A stretch of 64,000 nt of DNA, from positions 1-64,000 of the forward strand of contig JAFWLS010000018.1 of the NCBI GenBank assembly GCA_017514045.1, in the 5' to 3' direction. This stretch comes from Candidatus Saccharimonadota bacterium (lineage in GTDB: Bacteria > Patescibacteriota > Saccharimonadia > Saccharimonadales > Saccharimonadaceae). Shown one piece after another: positions 1 through 5,770 of this stretch. Position numbers and translations under genes: made by a program. The notes below the pieces were generated by a model. The model was not told the DNA's origin. It did not search any database and was given only the letters and a program-made list of their open reading frames with translations. Position 1 is the first letter of the stretch. Every line of letters begins with the position of its first letter.

Positions 1-288
1 CAGTTCGGTTTATATCCGGCATGATCGTTAGGAATCTTGAGGAGATCTGCCCCTAGTACGAGAGGACCAGGGTGGACGAATCTCTAGTGTATCGGTTGTA
101 GCCACCTGCTGCATTGCCGAGTAGCTATGTTCGGAAGGGATAAGCGCTGAAAGCATATTAAGCGCGAAGCCCACTCCAAGATAAGGATTCCCCATGAGAC
201 CCCAGAAAGAAGATCTGGTTGATAGGCGCAAGATGGAAGCACGGCAACGTGTGGAGTCGAAGCGTACTAATCGGTCCATCGCCTTTTT
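1..288 (+). rRNA. rrl: 23S rRNA, 3' end (partial)
   Basis: The window opens inside the 3' domain of 23S rRNA. The sarcin-ricin loop is visible around 54-66 (core AGTACGAGAGGACC), followed by the domain VI helices. The last conserved element is GTACTAAT at about 264-271. The mature 3' end is estimated near 288 by comparison with the known length after that element, so it is good to a few bases. The open frame on the opposite strand here is a shadow of the rRNA. Confidence 0.95.
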
Positions 289-360
289 ATGTCCTGCACT
301 TAGTCTAGCAATCGGCGCTCGATACGCCGAAGTCAATTAAAATCTGCATCTAATAGATGT

Positions 361-393
361 CAAGGCAAACGACGTAAAGCGTCGCTTGCCTTG
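361..393 (+). other. Processing-type hairpin overlapping the 5S 5' end
   Basis: A 13-bp inverted repeat with one mismatch pairs 361-373 with 381-393 around a 7-nt loop. Its 3' arm contains the first bases of 5S rRNA, so it competes with 5S helix I. It may be a precursor processing stem or a folding switch during 5S maturation. Confidence 0.6.
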
Positions 394-498
394 GCGTCCA
401 TACCGCCAGGGAAATACCTGTTCTCATTCCGAACACAGAAGTCAAGCCTGGTAGGGGCGATTATACTGCGATAGCGGGAAACTAGCAAGATGCCAATT
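388..498 (+). rRNA. rrf: 5S rRNA
   Basis: The conserved 5S core ATTCCGAACACAGAAGTCAAG lies at about 425-444. Helix I pairs TTGGCGTC (391-398) with GATGCCAA (489-496). The length of about 110 nt is normal. It lies about 100 nt after 23S rRNA in the usual order, with no tRNA between, and a terminator follows at once. The exact ends are estimated from the helix. Confidence 0.93.
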
Positions 499-561: not shown

Positions 562-614
562 AAACAAAGTATATATACAAAGTGTATGTTGCACATTAAG
601 AAAGGGGAAGCACT

Positions 615-875
615 ATGTTCGAGAAGCATCGTAGAATACGCATCTGCCGCGCAATCAATACCTATTCCTTGGTCCCTGGAGCAATCTTAAGTTGGGTCGC
701 CAAGCCTCTTACGCCACTACACTGCGTCATTATAGCCATCGTATTCCTCGCTTCACTGAATCTCTGCGTCATCGACAAATCGAAAAAATGGAGCATTCTC
801 TACTTGATAATAGCAATTCTCGCTCTCGCCTCATTGCTCGTAGAGCTTATCCTCACCAATCTGCCGCCCCGCTAA
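615..875 (+). CDS. Small two-helix membrane protein, unknown function
   Basis: An 86-residue protein I do not recognise. A basic N-terminus (about residues 1-14) is followed by a hydrophobic stretch at about 17-55, and a second hydrophobic helix lies at about 60-80, so it is probably a two-pass inner-membrane protein. The ATG follows an AAAGGGG Shine-Dalgarno site with 7-nt spacing. It is a stand-alone unit with its own promoter and terminator. The stop codon lies inside the terminator stem, an unusually tight fit. An overlapping frame at 692-895 lacks a ribosome site and is rejected. Confidence 0.7.
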   Translation: MFEKHRRIRICRAINTYSLVPGAILSWVAKPLTPLHCVIIAIVFLASLNLCVIDKSKKWSILYLIIAILALASLLVELILTNLPPR

Positions 876-890
876 AAAGCGGGGCATTTT
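866..890 (+). terminator. Terminator of the 615 gene
   Basis: GCCCCGCT and AGCGGGGC form a perfect 8-bp stem with an AAAA loop and a T-rich tail. It overlaps the stop codon. Confidence 0.85.
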
Positions 891-891
891 A

Positions 892-920
892 TTGACAATA
901 CATAAGAATTATTGTATAAT
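892..920 (+). promoter_or_regulatory. Promoter of the 976 gene
   Basis: Consensus TTGACA (892-897), 17-bp spacer, TATAAT (915-920). The -35 starts directly after the upstream terminator. Confidence 0.85.
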
Positions 921-975
921 GATAAATAATCATTATCTAGCCATAATATGGTAGCACTTTGAAAGGAGTATTGTC

Positions 976-1449
976 GTGAAAAGAGGGAATATTTATTTCG
1001 AACTGCCCGGTAAATTCGGATTCTACGGAAGTTTCGGATCCCCCCTTTATCGTGGAGGTTGGGCCGTCACAGATGATATGCTAAGTTTGTGTGGAGCCAG
1101 ATTAGGATTTCTCACTCAACCACTGAATTATGTGGACAGCAACGGTCAGATTCCGACAATGTCTGCAGTCGAGTCAAAATGCGATCTTGTCGACGCAATT
1201 CTGAAGCAGTTGGCTAGCATCGAAACCGGCACGGTCACTCATATTCAGGTACCACCAAACCTCGCAGTAGCCCTCTGCTTGTCTGGACTTATAACTGAGT
1301 CAAACGTCAAAAACGCACAAGAATCCGAGGATTGTATCGAAATACCCGAAGTCAAAATCCAAGGCAGAGTATACACAATCTACATAGTGGACGGAGAATT
1401 CAAACACAAGCTCATCGGTCCTGCCGGAATAATCAATATTGCCGCGTAA
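976..1449 (+). CDS. Orphan protein, 157 aa, GTG start
   Basis: No family recognised. The GTG start is chosen because AAAGGAG (962-968) lies 7 nt upstream and no ATG is better placed. The protein looks soluble: a Gly/aromatic-rich N-terminus (about residues 8-30), a mixed middle part with a helix ending near residue 85, and a strand-rich C-terminal half. There is no signal peptide or membrane helix. It is a single-gene unit with its own promoter and a 9-bp-stem terminator. Confidence 0.65.
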   Translation: MKRGNIYFELPGKFGFYGSFGSPLYRGGWAVTDDMLSLCGARLGFLTQPLNYVDSNGQIPTMSAVESKCDLVDAILKQLASIETGTVTHIQVPPNLAVALCLSGLITESNVKNAQESEDCIEIPEVKIQGRVYTIYIVDGEFKHKLIGPAGIINIAA

Positions 1450-1455
1450 CTCCTA

Positions 1456-1485
1456 CCCCAGCGTAAACACAACGCTGGGGTTTTC
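1456..1485 (+). terminator. Terminator of the 976 gene
   Basis: CCCCAGCGT and ACGCTGGGG form a 9-bp stem followed by TTTT. Confidence 0.85.
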
Positions 1486-1497
1486 TATCTACCGATA

Positions 1498-1526
1498 TTG
1501 ACGATGCATAGTTCTTATTGTATAAT
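1498..1526 (+). promoter_or_regulatory. Promoter of the 1571 gene
   Basis: TTGACG (1498-1503), 17-bp spacer, TATAAT (1521-1526). The leader after the -10 is nearly the same as that of the 2141 gene. Confidence 0.8.
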
Positions 1527-1570
1527 ATATGAATAGCTTTTGACTATGTACTTTAAAAGGAGTGACCTAT

Positions 1571-2029
1571 ATGACATTTCAGTCCCTGTCTGAAATACGC
1601 GAATTTAAAAGCACAGGATATGAACGTACGGAAGCCGACATCTTGAGATTTAAAAACGGCAACAAAGAGCTTCAGGGCCAGCCAACATCAATAAACGGCT
1701 CCCTCGCCAAAGCCGAAGACAGACTCAACAGCATAATAAAGAACAGCAAGTGTGCCATCCTTATTCGTAAAGACGCTCAGTCCAAGATATACTATTTACT
1801 CGATCTAGACGTAATAGCGACAGTCCCGGTTGATAAGAGTAATGTCGCACCCTACAGAAATGCCCTTGACCTAACAAATGTTTCCTCCTTCGAAACCCTC
1901 ACAAATCGCCAGATAGCAAAAGAAATCAGTGTGATCTTCGATATCATCGATCTATGGCATAGACCAAAAGCCTGGAAGGAAGTCAGAAGTAAAATTGGAA
2001 GTCATTATAAGAGCCAAAGAGATGGTTAA
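1571..2029 (+). CDS. Orphan protein, paralogue of the 2141 gene (copy A)
   Basis: A 152-residue protein of unknown function. The ATG at 1571 is preferred over the in-frame GTG at 1562, because AAAAGGAG (1555-1562) lies 8 nt upstream of the ATG and overlaps the GTG. The C-terminal half shares a module with the next gene: an ILI strand, IYYLLDLD, then DLTNV, and a late Trp-containing helix (P-x-x-W). The N-terminal part is unlike its neighbour. No membrane helix or signal peptide. The shared promoter-leader sequence points to tandem duplication followed by divergence. Confidence 0.7.
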   Translation: MTFQSLSEIREFKSTGYERTEADILRFKNGNKELQGQPTSINGSLAKAEDRLNSIIKNSKCAILIRKDAQSKIYYLLDLDVIATVPVDKSNVAPYRNALDLTNVSSFETLTNRQIAKEISVIFDIIDLWHRPKAWKEVRSKIGSHYKSQRDG

Positions 2030-2044
2030 CTCCCTTCATTTTAT

Positions 2045-2066
2045 AGCCCCCACGCGGGGCTTTTTC
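2045..2066 (+). terminator. Terminator of the 1571 gene
   Basis: AGCCCC and GGGGCT stem, 5-nt loop, TTTTT tail. Confidence 0.8.
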
Positions 2067-2095
2067 TTGCATCACCATAATATTTATGTTATAAT
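2067..2095 (+). promoter_or_regulatory. Promoter of the 2141 gene
   Basis: TTGCAT (2067-2072), 17-bp spacer, TATAAT (2090-2095), extended -10 TTATGT. The -35 starts one base after the upstream T-tract. Confidence 0.8.
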
Positions 2096-2140
2096 ATAAG
2101 AATAGCTTTCCGCTAAGTATCTTAAAAGGAGTGATTTTGA

Positions 2141-2644
2141 ATGAGTAGCGTCCCCAGGGTAGAGGGCATGAAAGCCAAAAGATACAAAGGTAAGGTAGAG
2201 TCGCGTAGGGCCATTAAGGAAAAGATCGCTGATCTTCAAAAACAGCTTAAAGACGCCGAATCCGAGTTAGCGCAAGCCGAATCCGACATTAAAACCATGG
2301 AAAATAATGGCAAATTCCCGATTCTTATCTACATGTCCACCGAAAATGTTAAAGCAGGGGGCCTCTGTAGCTTAACAACCAGTCGCACGCATTACATTTA
2401 TTATCTGCTCGACCTTGACACAACCATAGAATACGCATGGAAAGGCGACCACAGCGACAAACATCGCAAGAAGGGAACCTGTGATTTAACCAACGTAATA
2501 GCTTCCAACCCCTATACTAGAGTTGAAGCCATAGCCGAAATCAAGAAAGCCGCTGCTGATTTAATAAACCAGCACGCCCCCAGAACCTGGCCGCAGCTCA
2601 AAAAACTGCTCGAAGAACACTTTTCTAAAACATCAACCAACTAA
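2141..2644 (+). CDS. Coiled-coil orphan protein, paralogue of the 1571 gene (copy B)
   Basis: A 167-residue protein. Residues about 22-58 form a Lys/Glu/Ala-rich predicted coiled coil that copy A lacks. The C-terminal domain repeats the module of copy A (ILI strand, IYYLLDLD, DLTNV, then a helix with R-T-W). The start is supported by AAAAGGAG at 2124-2131. The two copies share the promoter, the GAATAGCTTT leader element and the ribosome site, so the duplication covered the whole transcription unit. Function unknown; the shared domain suggests one binding fold joined to different N-termini. Confidence 0.72.
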   Translation: MSSVPRVEGMKAKRYKGKVESRRAIKEKIADLQKQLKDAESELAQAESDIKTMENNGKFPILIYMSTENVKAGGLCSLTTSRTHYIYYLLDLDTTIEYAWKGDHSDKHRKKGTCDLTNVIASNPYTRVEAIAEIKKAAADLINQHAPRTWPQLKKLLEEHFSKTSTN

Positions 2645-2666
2645 GTCATTCCTTTTTTACATTCTC

Positions 2667-2694
2667 ACCCCGTTCAACAAGGACGGGGTCTTTT
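2667..2694 (+). terminator. Terminator of the 2141 gene
   Basis: ACCCCGT and ACGGGGT stem with a 9-nt loop and TTTT. Confidence 0.8.
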
Positions 2695-2695
2695 C

Positions 2696-2724
2696 TTGTA
2701 TTAATCACGAAAATATGTTATAAT
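2696..2724 (+). promoter_or_regulatory. Promoter of the 2793 gene
   Basis: TTGTAT (2696-2701), 17-bp spacer, TATAAT (2719-2724) with extended TATGT. The leader is about 60 nt. Confidence 0.8.
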
Positions 2725-2792
2725 AGCAAAAGATTGCCTCACTCGCACCTTTACGCATTACTCTCAAAAAACAACAAAAAGGAGCTTGTTCT

Positions 2793-3206
2793 ATGAAAAA
2801 AGCAAAAGAACCCGCCCTCTTCGGCGACACTGTCGACGATCCCATTAAAATAGTCATCACTTCGCCTCATGAAATATGGGAAAGTCTCTCGTATGCTATC
2901 AAGTACAATCGCTTCTCCCTCTTTCTCACTCGTAGCGTGAGATATATAATTAATCGAGCCCGCTTCGGCCATCTTCTCAAAATCTATGAAGATCTTCCCG
3001 AATTGAAAGACATCTTCGATCGGAACCACGACAACGCGAAACTGTTTTTCGAAGAGAGTGTTCAATGGTGCGAATCAGAATGTAGTCTAGAGTATATTGA
3101 CAAAGGGTATATCAGTTTTTACCACAAGCACCCTTCCGCTAGCGCCAAAAAGCTCTATACATTGTTGCTATACCTAATTCTTAGGGATTTACCCCTTTTC
3201 GTATAG
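2793..3206 (+). CDS. Orphan protein, 137 aa
   Basis: No family recognised. The ATG follows AAAAAGGAG. The protein is rich in aromatic and basic residues (central segment about 40-62) with a Cys pair near residues 91 and 95. The last 18 residues are strongly hydrophobic (LLLYLI type), so it may carry a C-terminal membrane tail. Stand-alone unit with its own promoter and terminator. The opposite-strand frame at 2751-3065 has no ribosome site and is rejected. Confidence 0.65.
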   Translation: MKKAKEPALFGDTVDDPIKIVITSPHEIWESLSYAIKYNRFSLFLTRSVRYIINRARFGHLLKIYEDLPELKDIFDRNHDNAKLFFEESVQWCESECSLEYIDKGYISFYHKHPSASAKKLYTLLLYLILRDLPLFV

Positions 3207-3229
3207 CACTTCTAGCCCGCCAAGCCATC

Positions 3230-3253
3230 GCCCCGCTTTCGCGGGGCTTTTTC
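3230..3253 (+). terminator. Terminator of the 2793 gene
   Basis: GCCCCGC-TTTC-GCGGGGC followed by TTTTTCTT. Almost identical to the next terminator at 3697. Confidence 0.9.
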
Positions 3254-3282
3254 TTGCCAAAATATTAAAAATATGTTATACT
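3254..3282 (+). promoter_or_regulatory. Promoter of the 3348 gene
   Basis: TTGCCA (3254-3259), 17-bp spacer, TATACT (3277-3282), extended TATGT. Confidence 0.78.
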
Positions 3283-3347
3283 AGAACAATAGATTCGTCT
3301 ATGCACATTTATTTCCTAGCAGAAAGTGCTATAAAAGGAGGTAAAAT

Positions 3348-3692
3348 ATGGCTAGCACTGAGTGGTATGCCGTCATCCTTGTAACTACCACCGAAAATCC
3401 TTCGGAGCCACCAGAAAACCGTTATCTAACACATACCAAGACCCTTGCCATTCACAGTGACGAAATGATTGCCAAAGAGTATGCCTGTCAATTAAGCGAA
3501 GACTACGGTTTTCCTTACTGGGCAGCCAGTATCAAGGACCTTATTGACGACCCTCATGATTATGCCGGTCGCATGGTCCTCGCTACTGACATGTTTAACC
3601 TCGATCCAACGGTAGTCGAAAATTACGCAAAACAACACCGCATTCTCGGCAAACCCAATTTTAAGCTCAAAATACCGAAATCGATGCCGTAA
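3348..3692 (+). CDS. Orphan protein, 114 aa
   Basis: No family recognised. The ATG follows a full AAAAGGAGGT site (3333-3342) with short spacing. A strand-rich N-terminus (WYAVILVTTTE) is followed by a helical middle section containing EYACQLSEDYG; acidic overall, no membrane segment. It is one of the strongest translation-initiation sites in the array, suggesting high expression when transcribed. Single-gene unit. Confidence 0.65.
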   Translation: MASTEWYAVILVTTTENPSEPPENRYLTHTKTLAIHSDEMIAKEYACQLSEDYGFPYWAASIKDLIDDPHDYAGRMVLATDMFNLDPTVVENYAKQHRILGKPNFKLKIPKSMP

Positions 3693-3696
3693 CCTA

Positions 3697-3719
3697 CCCC
3701 GCTTTCGCGGGGCTTTTTC
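3697..3719 (+). terminator. Terminator of the 3348 gene
   Basis: CCCCGC-TTTC-GCGGGG stem and TTTTT tail; near copy of the 3230 terminator including the following CTTG. Confidence 0.9.
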
Positions 3720-3748
3720 TTGTCAAAATTAGTGAATAATTATATAAT
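3720..3748 (+). promoter_or_regulatory. Promoter of the 3777 gene
   Basis: TTGTCA (3720-3725), 17-bp spacer, TATAAT (3743-3748). Leader only about 22 nt. Confidence 0.78.
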
Positions 3749-3776
3749 ATAAATATCATAATCGGGGAGGGATCAT

Positions 3777-4178
3777 ATGCGCACATTAGAAGAAATCAAA
3801 TCCGAACTTGACCTCATTGATGATAGTCTACAAAGTATTGCCTCAATCGTTAACAAGACTGGTCCTTATATATCATACGATATATCAACCTGGAACGCTA
3901 TTGTTCCGACGACAGCCGGACGAATCAACACTCTACAGCAAGATATTATAGATGCGGCTAACTCCGTCGCAGGCTACATAAAAAACGTAGCAGCAGAACT
4001 CTACATTGGAAGACGTTCTCAACCCAACGCTAAGCACGAATCTTCTCGTTCCACCGAAATTATCCAAGCTCTTTCTATTTATGCAGACGCTGTCGACGCA
4101 CAGGCAGACCGCCTTAACGACTATCAAACAAGGTTCATAGAACGCGCCAAAAGGCAAGGAGCAGAGACAATTGAATAA
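3777..4178 (+). CDS. Helical orphan protein, 133 aa
   Basis: Mostly alpha-helical by composition: heptad-like Leu/Ile at about residues 4-26 and 44-80, and another helix at about 90-120. No Cys, no membrane segment. GGGGAGGG precedes the ATG. The 3' end overlaps a short downstream frame by 8 nt, suggesting translational coupling. Unknown function; an adaptor-like helical bundle would fit but cannot be shown. Confidence 0.65.
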   Translation: MRTLEEIKSELDLIDDSLQSIASIVNKTGPYISYDISTWNAIVPTTAGRINTLQQDIIDAANSVAGYIKNVAAELYIGRRSQPNAKHESSRSTEIIQALSIYADAVDAQADRLNDYQTRFIERAKRQGAETIE

Positions 4179-4260
4179 AGAAATCCACGTTCTACGGGCC
4201 ATTGTCGACCAGATCGACGTCCACGTAGAAACCATTAATGTCTGCCTTAATCTCTGCTGA
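4171..4260 (+). CDS. Possible 29-aa coupled small protein, TTG start
   Basis: A TTG codon at 4171 sits 9 nt after AAGGAG (4156-4161), which lies inside the 3' end of the preceding gene. The frame runs 29 codons to TGA and overlaps that gene by 8 nt. The peptide is amphipathic (EIHVLRAIVDQID...) and resembles the first helix of the upstream protein (EEIKSELDLIDD). It is too short for statistical support, so it is a candidate only; the coupling geometry is the main evidence. Confidence 0.35.
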   Translation: MNKEIHVLRAIVDQIDVHVETINVCLNLC

Positions 4261-4292
4261 AGGCATATTTAACATCTTCGGATCGTTTTCTC

Positions 4293-4317
4293 GCCCCGCT
4301 CTCGCGGGGCTTCTTCT
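4293..4317 (+). terminator. Terminator of the 3777 unit
   Basis: GCCCCGC-TCTC-GCGGGGC stem with a TTCTTCTT tail. Confidence 0.85.
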
Positions 4318-4351
4318 TACTCAATTCACAAATTATTTTTAAATAAACCTA

Positions 4352-4380
4352 TTGACTTTATAATGCTTATGTGATATAAT
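4352..4380 (+). promoter_or_regulatory. Promoter of the unassigned 4387-4962 RNA unit
   Basis: TTGACT (4352-4357), 17-bp spacer, TATAAT (4375-4380), extended -10 TATGTGA. Confidence 0.8.
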
Positions 4381-4698
4381 CAAAGGATAGTCGCCAAAGC
4401 CCGCGAAACCGGCTGCGACTAAATACATTAACAGAAGGAGGGCCCGCCCCAGATGTCCGCTAAATGGATTGAAATATCTGGGTATGCTTAGACAATCTCG
4501 CCTCTCACACTCAAATATGATCGCGTGAGGGCCACTAGCCGCCACAGTAACTGCATGCGCGGCCAACACTGGCCAGAAGGTGAGGATCCTGTGAAAGAAT
4601 ACTATAGTGGATTCACTTAGCGTACCCCTCGGGACCTCTAGTATGGTAGTCAGAACTGGAAGCTCTCTGGGAGCTGACGCCGGTGGCATAGGCACAGA

Positions 4699-4739
4699 AC
4701 AGTAAACGCTGTTGATGTTGCCACGACAGCGTTTACTGT
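4699..4739 (+). repeat. Perfect 14-bp inverted repeat
   Basis: ACAGTAAACGCTGT (4699-4712) and ACAGCGTTTACTGT (4726-4739) with a 13-nt loop. No T-tract follows, so it is not a simple terminator. It is the strongest hairpin of the unassigned RNA unit. Confidence 0.8.
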
Positions 4740-4935
4740 CACCCCGGCATCGGCCGCATAACGACGAGAACTGGTTGTGCGGTCAAGCCTATAATGGCCG
4801 TCAAACCACAATCTGCACTACCGTAAAGGATCTGTACAGGAAGCCGATTAGGGGAGCGTTCAACGCCACCCCGTGCTTATCCAGAAGCTACGCTTCATCC
4901 TTGGCCACTCTACCGTAGGCCAGAAAGTACACCCC

Positions 4936-4962
4936 AGCCCCGTTCCCAGAACGGGGCTTTTC
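4936..4962 (+). terminator. Terminator of the 4387 RNA unit
   Basis: AGCCCCGTTC and GAACGGGGCT, 10-bp stem, TTTT tail. Confidence 0.85.
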
Positions 4963-4970
4963 CATACCCA

Positions 4971-4999
4971 TTGCAAAAATAAGCATTTTATGGTATAAT
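4971..4999 (+). promoter_or_regulatory. Promoter of the 5053 gene
   Basis: TTGCAA (4971-4976), 17-bp spacer, TATAAT (4994-4999), extended TATGG. Confidence 0.8.
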
Positions 5000-5052
5000 C
5001 AAAGAATATATACTCTATTTAAATCATATATCGAACATTAAGGAGGGGGAAC

Positions 5053-5730
5053 ATGTTACATAAACTGGATCCGTTTATTCGTTTCGCGAGCGACCTTTTC
5101 GGTGTCTCTTATAAAGAAGGCGAGAGAACGTTCCAAATCAAAGACAAGCATTTTATTATTGCGATCCTAGGCATCAGAGAAGAAAAACCCAGAAAAGAAT
5201 ACATCGACCAGTGTACGTTTAGCCATCTTTTCCCGCGTAACGGTGAGGCAATCATCTATAAACACGAAGCTACCAGTCTCGACAAATATTATCGCCTTAC
5301 TGATCATCTTGATGGTAAATGCCCGTTTTTAAAGGTCGCCGACAAGACTTATATGGACAGTCATCACGTCAATATCCCTAGAGGGATTGCAAAAACGCTT
5401 GAAAAGCTTTTAAAAAACGAAGGTTTCGTCTTTCTCTTCGGGCACGATTACGAGGACCGTAGAACAGTTCTTAAATACATTCAGGACGCATATAATGATC
5501 TCAAAGAAGAGCTTAAATCTGGTCCAGCCGCTACAGACTTCGGCATCTTGGCCGCAATGCGTGACTTCCTACCACAATTCGTCAACAATTCTTCTGATAT
5601 AGAGGAAAAGCGCGAGCTTAAAAGCATCATGGATAAATTGGCCATAATCGAAGAATACCAGAAAGCAATACAAGACCTTATCCGTGAAATGGGATTCCTA
5701 ATACCTTATATGGTGAAAGAAGAATCGTAA
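5053..5730 (+). CDS. Orphan protein, 225 aa
   Basis: No family recognised. The ATG follows AAGGAGGGGG. The first half (about 1-110) is mixed alpha/beta with many basic and aromatic residues; a hydrophobic strand FVFLFGHDYEDRR lies near residues 126-138; the C-terminal 90 residues look helical (KRELKSIMDKLAIIEEYQKAIQDLI). No signal peptide. It is the last unit before the ribosomal operon and has its own terminator, so it is not part of that operon. Confidence 0.68.
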   Translation: MLHKLDPFIRFASDLFGVSYKEGERTFQIKDKHFIIAILGIREEKPRKEYIDQCTFSHLFPRNGEAIIYKHEATSLDKYYRLTDHLDGKCPFLKVADKTYMDSHHVNIPRGIAKTLEKLLKNEGFVFLFGHDYEDRRTVLKYIQDAYNDLKEELKSGPAATDFGILAAMRDFLPQFVNNSSDIEEKRELKSIMDKLAIIEEYQKAIQDLIREMGFLIPYMVKEES

Positions 5731-5741
5731 CATTATCCTCC

Positions 5742-5770
5742 GCCCCGTCTTTCAAGACGGGGCTTTTTCT
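5742..5770 (+). terminator. Terminator of the 5053 gene
   Basis: GCCCCGTCT and AGACGGGGC stem followed by TTTTTCT. Confidence 0.88.

Follow-up and report, generated by a model that had tools for sequence, protein, structure and literature searches.

Structured RNAs of Saccharibacteria with peptide-conserved minigenes ending in S-G-F-x-UAG, a possible means of parking ribosomes

The window, a 64,000-nt stretch of Saccharibacteria DNA, contains a transcription unit that specifies an unassigned structured transcript, and seven relatives of this RNA were found. The members share one anatomy, recur in unrelated surroundings and carry very short reading frames (minigenes) that are conserved at the peptide level and restricted to the stop codon UAG. 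With a probability of about one half, we read them as freestanding ribosome-binding RNAs whose minigenes would delay RF1-dependent termination and thereby park ribosomes on the RNA, a reading based on sequence comparison. To judge by Rfam and the open literature, the family is undescribed; literature searches, with most subscription journals outside their reach, returned nothing on SGFT together with peptide and ribosome, and no such RNA in Saccharibacteria.

The source genome (845 kb, 98.6% complete) is that of a tiny gut bacterium, and its close relatives are MAGs from sheep, goat, roe deer and rumen. A sequence-only reading of this DNA had described the unit as the sole one in its array without a normal gene, bracketed by a strong promoter and a 10-bp terminator and containing a perfect 14-bp stem, all of which was borne out (Table 1). 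The longest plus-strand ORF has 68 codons, in keeping with the stated lack of any gene above that length, and a 118-codon minus-strand ORF over the unit has no Pfam match. The same reading had seen no ribosome site matched to a frame; this was mistaken, since AAGGAGG leads to an ATG at 4453 and AAGGTGAGG to a GTG at 4591. Because the minigenes have ribosome sites and peptide-level conservation, a purely non-coding picture of the RNA is wrong. These two are the only SD-led mini-ORFs ending in [ST]G[FY]x on either strand of the 64 kb. They are also the least typical of the family, with an SGYA ending and, at minigene 2, a GTG start and a weaker SD.

Table 1. Features of the window and minigenes of the related RNAs
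Feature	Position	Strand	Remarks
23S rRNA 3' end	1-291		
5S rRNA	390-498		
Array of single-gene units	568-5770		between 5S rRNA and rplC; each unit with its own promoter and terminator
S10 ribosomal-protein operon	from 5905		begins with rplC
Promoter	4352-4380	+	-35 TTGACT, 17-nt spacer, extended -10 (TG)TATAAT; 11/12 matches
Putative transcript, 576 nt	4387-4962	+	start put 7 nt past the -10
5' stem-loop TAGTCGC...GCGACTA	4388-4421	+	extreme 5' end; pair probability 0.98
SD of minigene 1, AAGGAGG	4435-4441	+	11 nt ahead of the ATG
Minigene 1, MSAKWIEISGYA	4453-4491	+	ATG...TAG, 12 codons
SD-like sequence of minigene 2, AAGGTGAGG	4577-4585	+	
Minigene 2, VKEYYSGFT	4591-4620	+	GTG...TAG, 9 codons
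CGTACCCCTCGGGACCTCTA	4621-4640	+	directly after minigene 2; contains CCTCT, predicted anti-SD strand
Multibranch structured domain	4642-4825	+	closed by TATGGTAGT/ACTACCGTA
14-16 bp stem in multibranch domain	4699-4714/4724-4739	+	perfect 14 bp at 4699-4712/4726-4739; 16 pairs in fold
3' domain, TACGCTTCATCC-(hairpin)-AAAGTACAC	4833-4932	+	exact match in G002 only
Intrinsic terminator	4936-4962	+	perfect 10-bp stem 4936-4945/4949-4958
G002 minigenes, MFTTGFT, VKYFSGFT			syntenic reading, before any motif search
G117 minigenes, MRFTSGFM, MFVSGFT			other species, other locus, behind rpoC
G495 minigenes, MYTSGFI, MFTSGFT			
G309 minigene, MFTSGFT			
G240 minigenes, MVYPSGFT, MKLIRWYLSGFK			
G500 minigenes, MEIWSGFT, MDWPSGFT, probably MRFPSEFY			weak SD at MEIWSGFT
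G373 minigene, MVRSGFT			

The nucleotide search for relatives that the sequence-only reading had suggested was unproductive: blastn gave nothing meaningful in 174 genomes of the genus (173 others), 393 of the class, phages and plasmids, and weak matches to the 5' hairpin were discarded as lying inside protein genes, e.g. one encoding topoisomerase. A syntenic relative of the same genus, G002 (rplC 94% identical), holds a second such RNA between homologues of the window genes at 3348-3692 and 5053-5730; an intact homologous protein gene, which had been named as a sign against an RNA, is absent from this place. Its unit shows a near-identical promoter (34 of 42 positions from -35 to +13), the 5' stem-loop, the stretch GGATTCAC(T/C)TAGC that both RNAs have at minigene 2, the TACGCTTCATCC-hairpin-AAAGTACAC and a terminator, and the 5' halves of the two RNAs have in common ribosome sites followed by tiny frames. 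A terminator match in G117, seemingly trivial, led to the third member, which came up in a scan of loci for the pattern SD-start-GF(T)-TAG; ACCCCT-CTAG of the segment behind minigene 2 is common to the window RNA, G002 and G117, and the 5' stem-loop is present in G002, G309 and G117. When the same pattern was run over 394 genomes of the family, five more members from other genera were obtained.

The seven relatives are promoter-to-terminator transcripts of 388-771 nt without a normal gene, and the family RNAs carry one to three SD-led minigenes of 7-12 codons ending in [ST]-G-[FY]-x-UAG. Their shared plan is a promoter, a 5' stem-loop or closing stem, minigenes, a folded tail and a terminator. 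Members are rare, with 3 among the 174 genus genomes, and a class-level search returned no member outside the Saccharibacteria family. Relaxing the motif in a genus-wide scan added nothing but chance matches to the three known members; the strict 3' motif was found in the window and G002 only and is absent from viral contigs. The candidate MEKAREEVSGFT in G156 was rejected because it is antisense to a gene. In the window (4453-4620) and in G002 (L134:6048-6143), both minigenes are in the same frame, which stays open from the first to the second, so that UAG read-through would yield a 53- or 31-residue peptide; such a single-frame pair is absent from the remaining family members.

These relatives bear directly on the suggestion that the unit is a gene decayed by frameshifts. 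The unit matches no protein family and its conserved coding content consists of minigenes of 7-12 codons, and we regard a decayed gene as unlikely. Decay or chance intergenic sequence would be compatible with a hypervariable locus and with the lack of a nucleotide homologue in the 173 other genus genomes, but G002, where the promoter, the minigenes, the 3' motif and the terminator all recur, contradicts it, and taken together these two explanations are scarcely credible. The stretch from 5S rRNA to rplC is indeed hypervariable: the array proteins have no Pfam match at the cut-off, and tblastn placed their relatives in at most one other locus. G002 carries homologues of six array units in changed order. 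Two of the array units, at 1562 and 2141, appear paralogous and share a YYLLDLD motif. The structured 5' leaders of two adjacent G002 units (L134:2092-2210, 2838-2945) are nearly the same (GTAACC..GGTTACTGGGGATCATCCC...) and may represent a leader element common to array units.

The other suggestion of the sequence-only reading, a new structured RNA, was upheld, as no Rfam family matches and the seven relatives share the plan. No covariance-model match at gathering score was obtained for the Rfam 15 families (including GOLLD, ROOL, tmRNA, RNase P, 6S and SRP), and the scan of the unit yielded chance matches only (E up to 10), which agrees with the stated lack of an RNase P, tmRNA or SRP signature. 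Scanning the relatives against Rfam detected only rRNA and tRNA neighbours. RNase P lies elsewhere in the source genome, as do two tmRNA genes above the Rfam cut-off (C5:403-762, L298, and C17:9120-9476, L297), the tags of which read AKNTKATHVAYMPAYA and AENTIGKRVAYMPAYA; ARAGORN misses the tmRNAs of this genus. The family resembles tmRNA in being an RNA with a short reading frame, and in two members the ends pair, but the Saccharibacteria members lack a tRNA-like domain (acceptor/T-arm) and CCA.

Folding of the 576-nt RNA gave -220.7 kcal/mol with a z of -5.8, a value that varied from -4.2 to -6.9 with the shuffle sample, and none of 100 shuffles equalled it. With the terminator and the 14-bp stem removed, z was -3.9 on the plus strand versus -1.0 on the minus strand. 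The remaining array units ranged from -2.5 to +0.9; since the rplC coding sequence reached -4.0 by the same method, folding is supporting evidence and not decisive alone. All eight family RNAs fold better than their shuffles (z -2.2 to -9.5), and the antisense strands of several fold well too. G500 and G373, which are syntenic and of one genus, have in common a 13-bp end-joining helix, a long 5' hairpin and a GAGGGTAGCGC...GCGCTACCCTC hairpin. For this pair, covariation was judged from RNAalifold counts on the two sequences: of 141 predicted pairs, 26 retain pairing via two-sided changes, some of them weakly aligned. In the window RNA, part of SD1 (4437-4441) is predicted to pair with CCTCT at 4635-4639 behind minigene 2. 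By this prediction from one sequence, there could be a link between ribosome movement on minigene 2 and how accessible minigene 1 is.

What the minigenes conserve is seen in their codons. The shared Ser is encoded by all six of its codons (TCT, TCA, TCC, TCG, AGT, AGC), the shared Gly by all four (GGA, GGG, GGT, GGC) and Phe by both, and the use of all Ser and Gly codons indicates that the peptide is what is conserved. An aromatic residue precedes Ser by two positions in many of the bacterial copies, and T, I, M, K, A, V and G all occur at the C-terminus. The variety of codons bears on the idea that the SD-like and GGNTTYACNTAG segments are kept for base pairing within a structural RNA and not for translation. 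That idea draws on the good folding of all members, the predicted SD1/CCTCT pairing in the window RNA and, for G495 and G309, a predicted pairing of the SD with the end of its own mini-ORF. Pairing, however, would keep letters and not codons, and here Ser appears as both TCN and AGY and Gly in all four codons; moreover, an in-frame start always lies 4-14 nt behind the SD and an in-frame TAG follows. We give a purely structural role a slim chance.

The stop codon is equally constant. UAG ends all 12 high-confidence copies (those with a clear SD), whereas among 1000 long genes of the genus TAG is the stop codon of 181 (18%). The eight RNAs hold 12 such mini-ORFs in 4790 nt, all with TAG; the background, 80 unselected genus loci comprising 2.85 million strand-nt, holds four such SD mini-ORFs and none with TAG. 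Five of the eight members were found by a pattern that fixes G-F-T-UAG, and therefore only the pre-search copies and the extra copies are free of this bias. The former are the four minigenes of the window RNA and G002; the latter, not demanded by the pattern, are MRFTSGFM, MYTSGFI, MKLIRWYLSGFK and MEIWSGFT (in G117, G495, G240 and G500, respectively). All of these bias-free copies stop at TAG.

RF1 is the only release factor that reads UAG, and UAA is read by both factors. The conservation of UAG and of the internal S-G-F, together with a variable last residue, argues for a termination event and not a released peptide as the conserved function. We infer that the unit is transcribed and its minigenes translated. 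A ribosome would initiate on a minigene and synthesise its peptide; release by RF1 may then be hindered by the nascent S-G-F, together with the aromatic residue two positions upstream, so that the ribosome would park with UAG in the A site. No downstream regulated gene exists, as no further ORF lies between the minigenes and the terminator, which suggests that ribosomes, once parked, affect the RNA that carries them or are themselves the target. They could open or protect the fold and set the lifetime of the RNA, and/or the RNA could be a sink or sensor for ribosomes or RF1. Delayed termination, its presumed link to RF1 and a presumed use to the cell or a phage would make up this reading.

A different use of the peptides can be imagined, namely that they are secreted or modified, as signals or antimicrobial precursors of the microcin C kind, with tandem copies raising the dose and the RNA controlling translation. 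The precursor of microcin C has seven residues, and the minigenes are of similar length; their peptide-level conservation and the near-identical ends of tandem copies would suit such a product. Were the released peptide the product, conservation of a single stop codon would be unexpected; moreover, the C-terminal residue is variable versus the fixed C-terminal Asn of microcin C precursors, and the members occupy unrelated surroundings without a conserved modification or export gene adjoining. We consider peptide products unlikely. Dual-function sRNAs and type I toxin mRNAs (SgrS, RNAIII, hok) are likewise structured stand-alone RNAs that hold a small ORF, in some cases behind a sequestered SD. 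They have single ORFs of about 18-50 codons, and the type I toxins are hydrophobic; here, in contrast, the ORFs are tandem, of 7-12 codons, and their peptides have no hydrophobic span and are not membrane peptides.

For the parking of ribosomes at UAG, the nearest precedents are leaders that arrest termination: the six-residue MsrDL peptide (MYLIFM-UAA) blocks both RF1 and RF2 (PMC10314930), and TnaC inhibits termination (PMC8012679). As here, these leaders are very short SD-led ORFs with conserved residues near the stop. They differ in controlling a downstream gene and needing an inducer, whereas the RNAs described here have their own terminator with no further gene, and in the family the minigenes occur in tandem and the stop is always UAG.

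Viral contigs contain similar minigenes. SGFT-UAG occurred there in 16 in-frame matches, eight of them outside plausible genes, and five independent phage settings were distinguished (L193/L195/L204; L200; L211; L216; L218/L221). The controls, 11 matches to the permuted motif GSFT-UAG and 14 to SGFT-UAA/UGA, gave no comparable set; long overlapping ORFs account for all but one, which sits at the end of a contig and falls in the same overlapping-gene group. Minus-strand ORFs overlap L193 and L195/L204 (107-109 codons) and L218/L221 (62-84 codons); we took them to be spurious, as these stretches are part of a tRNA cluster or adjoin a tRNA. With a strict cut at 60 codons, no more than three SGFT-UAG matches of the 16 stay free of ORFs. 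Some phage matches (L200, L211, L333) may be due to chance, and MRPIGFT matches in marine phages were rejected as overlapping a long antisense ORF. The copies in L193, L195, L204, L216, L218 and L221 adjoin tRNA genes and keep a Tyr two residues ahead of Ser, which the first scans did not demand. On a 207-kb phage contig, MEYPSGFG (L331:668-694) lies directly upstream of a tRNA nucleotidyltransferase gene. In phage L347, 421 bp comprise a promoter, MFHSGFV-UAG, about 100 nt, MRFTTGFT-UAG, which the search had not selected, and a terminator. Such likeness in sequence suggests a shared trick on terminating ribosomes.

The phage setting also recalls lambda bar and axe-txe minigenes, which have a strong SD and a phage context and affect ribosomes and tRNAs (PMC8708949). 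By analogy, round after round of initiation and termination on minigenes with strong SDs, accompanied by drop-off of peptidyl-tRNA, might leave the cell starved of one tRNA or of peptidyl-tRNA hydrolase, so that the RNA would work as a brake or a toxin. Minigene toxicity via tRNA starvation is documented (PMC8708949), and the strong SDs, very short ORFs, tandem copies and phage copies beside tRNA genes or tRNA nucleotidyltransferase are in line with such a trap. However, that toxicity declines with length and peaks at two codons (PMC8708949); lambda bar-type minigenes are about two codons long and lack a conserved peptide motif, whereas the SD and start here lead into 7-12 codons with S-G-F and UAG in a structured RNA. 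Drop-off would, in addition, deplete the tRNA of the last sense codon, which is variable here, while the conserved S, G and F are internal. We find a drop-off trap rather improbable. GOLLD, another large RNA of phage tRNA islands, is bound by ribosomes in pull-downs, and no minigenes are described for GOLLD or ROOL in the text consulted (PMC12286853); neither gave an Rfam match in the window RNA or any relative scanned.

Extended to both hosts, the parking of ribosomes at UAG might define a class of freestanding ribosome-capturing RNAs in Saccharibacteria and tailed phages, in which [FYW]-x-[ST]-G-[FY]-x in tandem minigenes would block RF1 at UAG and serve to sense or titrate RF1 or to react to UAG suppression by phage tRNAs, and not for cis regulation; we offer this wider proposal tentatively, with the odds against it. 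Short arrest peptides and minigenes are already known kinds. If delayed termination at UAG is borne out, S-G-F-x-UAG would be among the shortest natural peptide motifs controlling translation termination and, to our knowledge, the first tied to a single stop codon; its carriers would be RNAs without a gene to regulate, and phages and ultrasmall epibiotic bacteria would hold ribosomes in a common way. Seemingly gene-less RNAs that nucleotide search and Rfam miss can be recognised via peptide-conserved minigenes.

Two related phages have, ahead of the tRNA cluster, a second conserved minigene with synonymous changes, MKIR(L/A)NVLAK-UGA (L195:4061-4093, L193:783-815), which precedes the SGFT minigene. 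Behind the minigenes of L195 lies a tmRNA-like 3' end (4366-4412; 30 bits to RF00023, below the cut-off). A tmRNA assignment for L195 was dropped, the supposed 5' half reading as the minigene MKIR(L/A)NVLAK.
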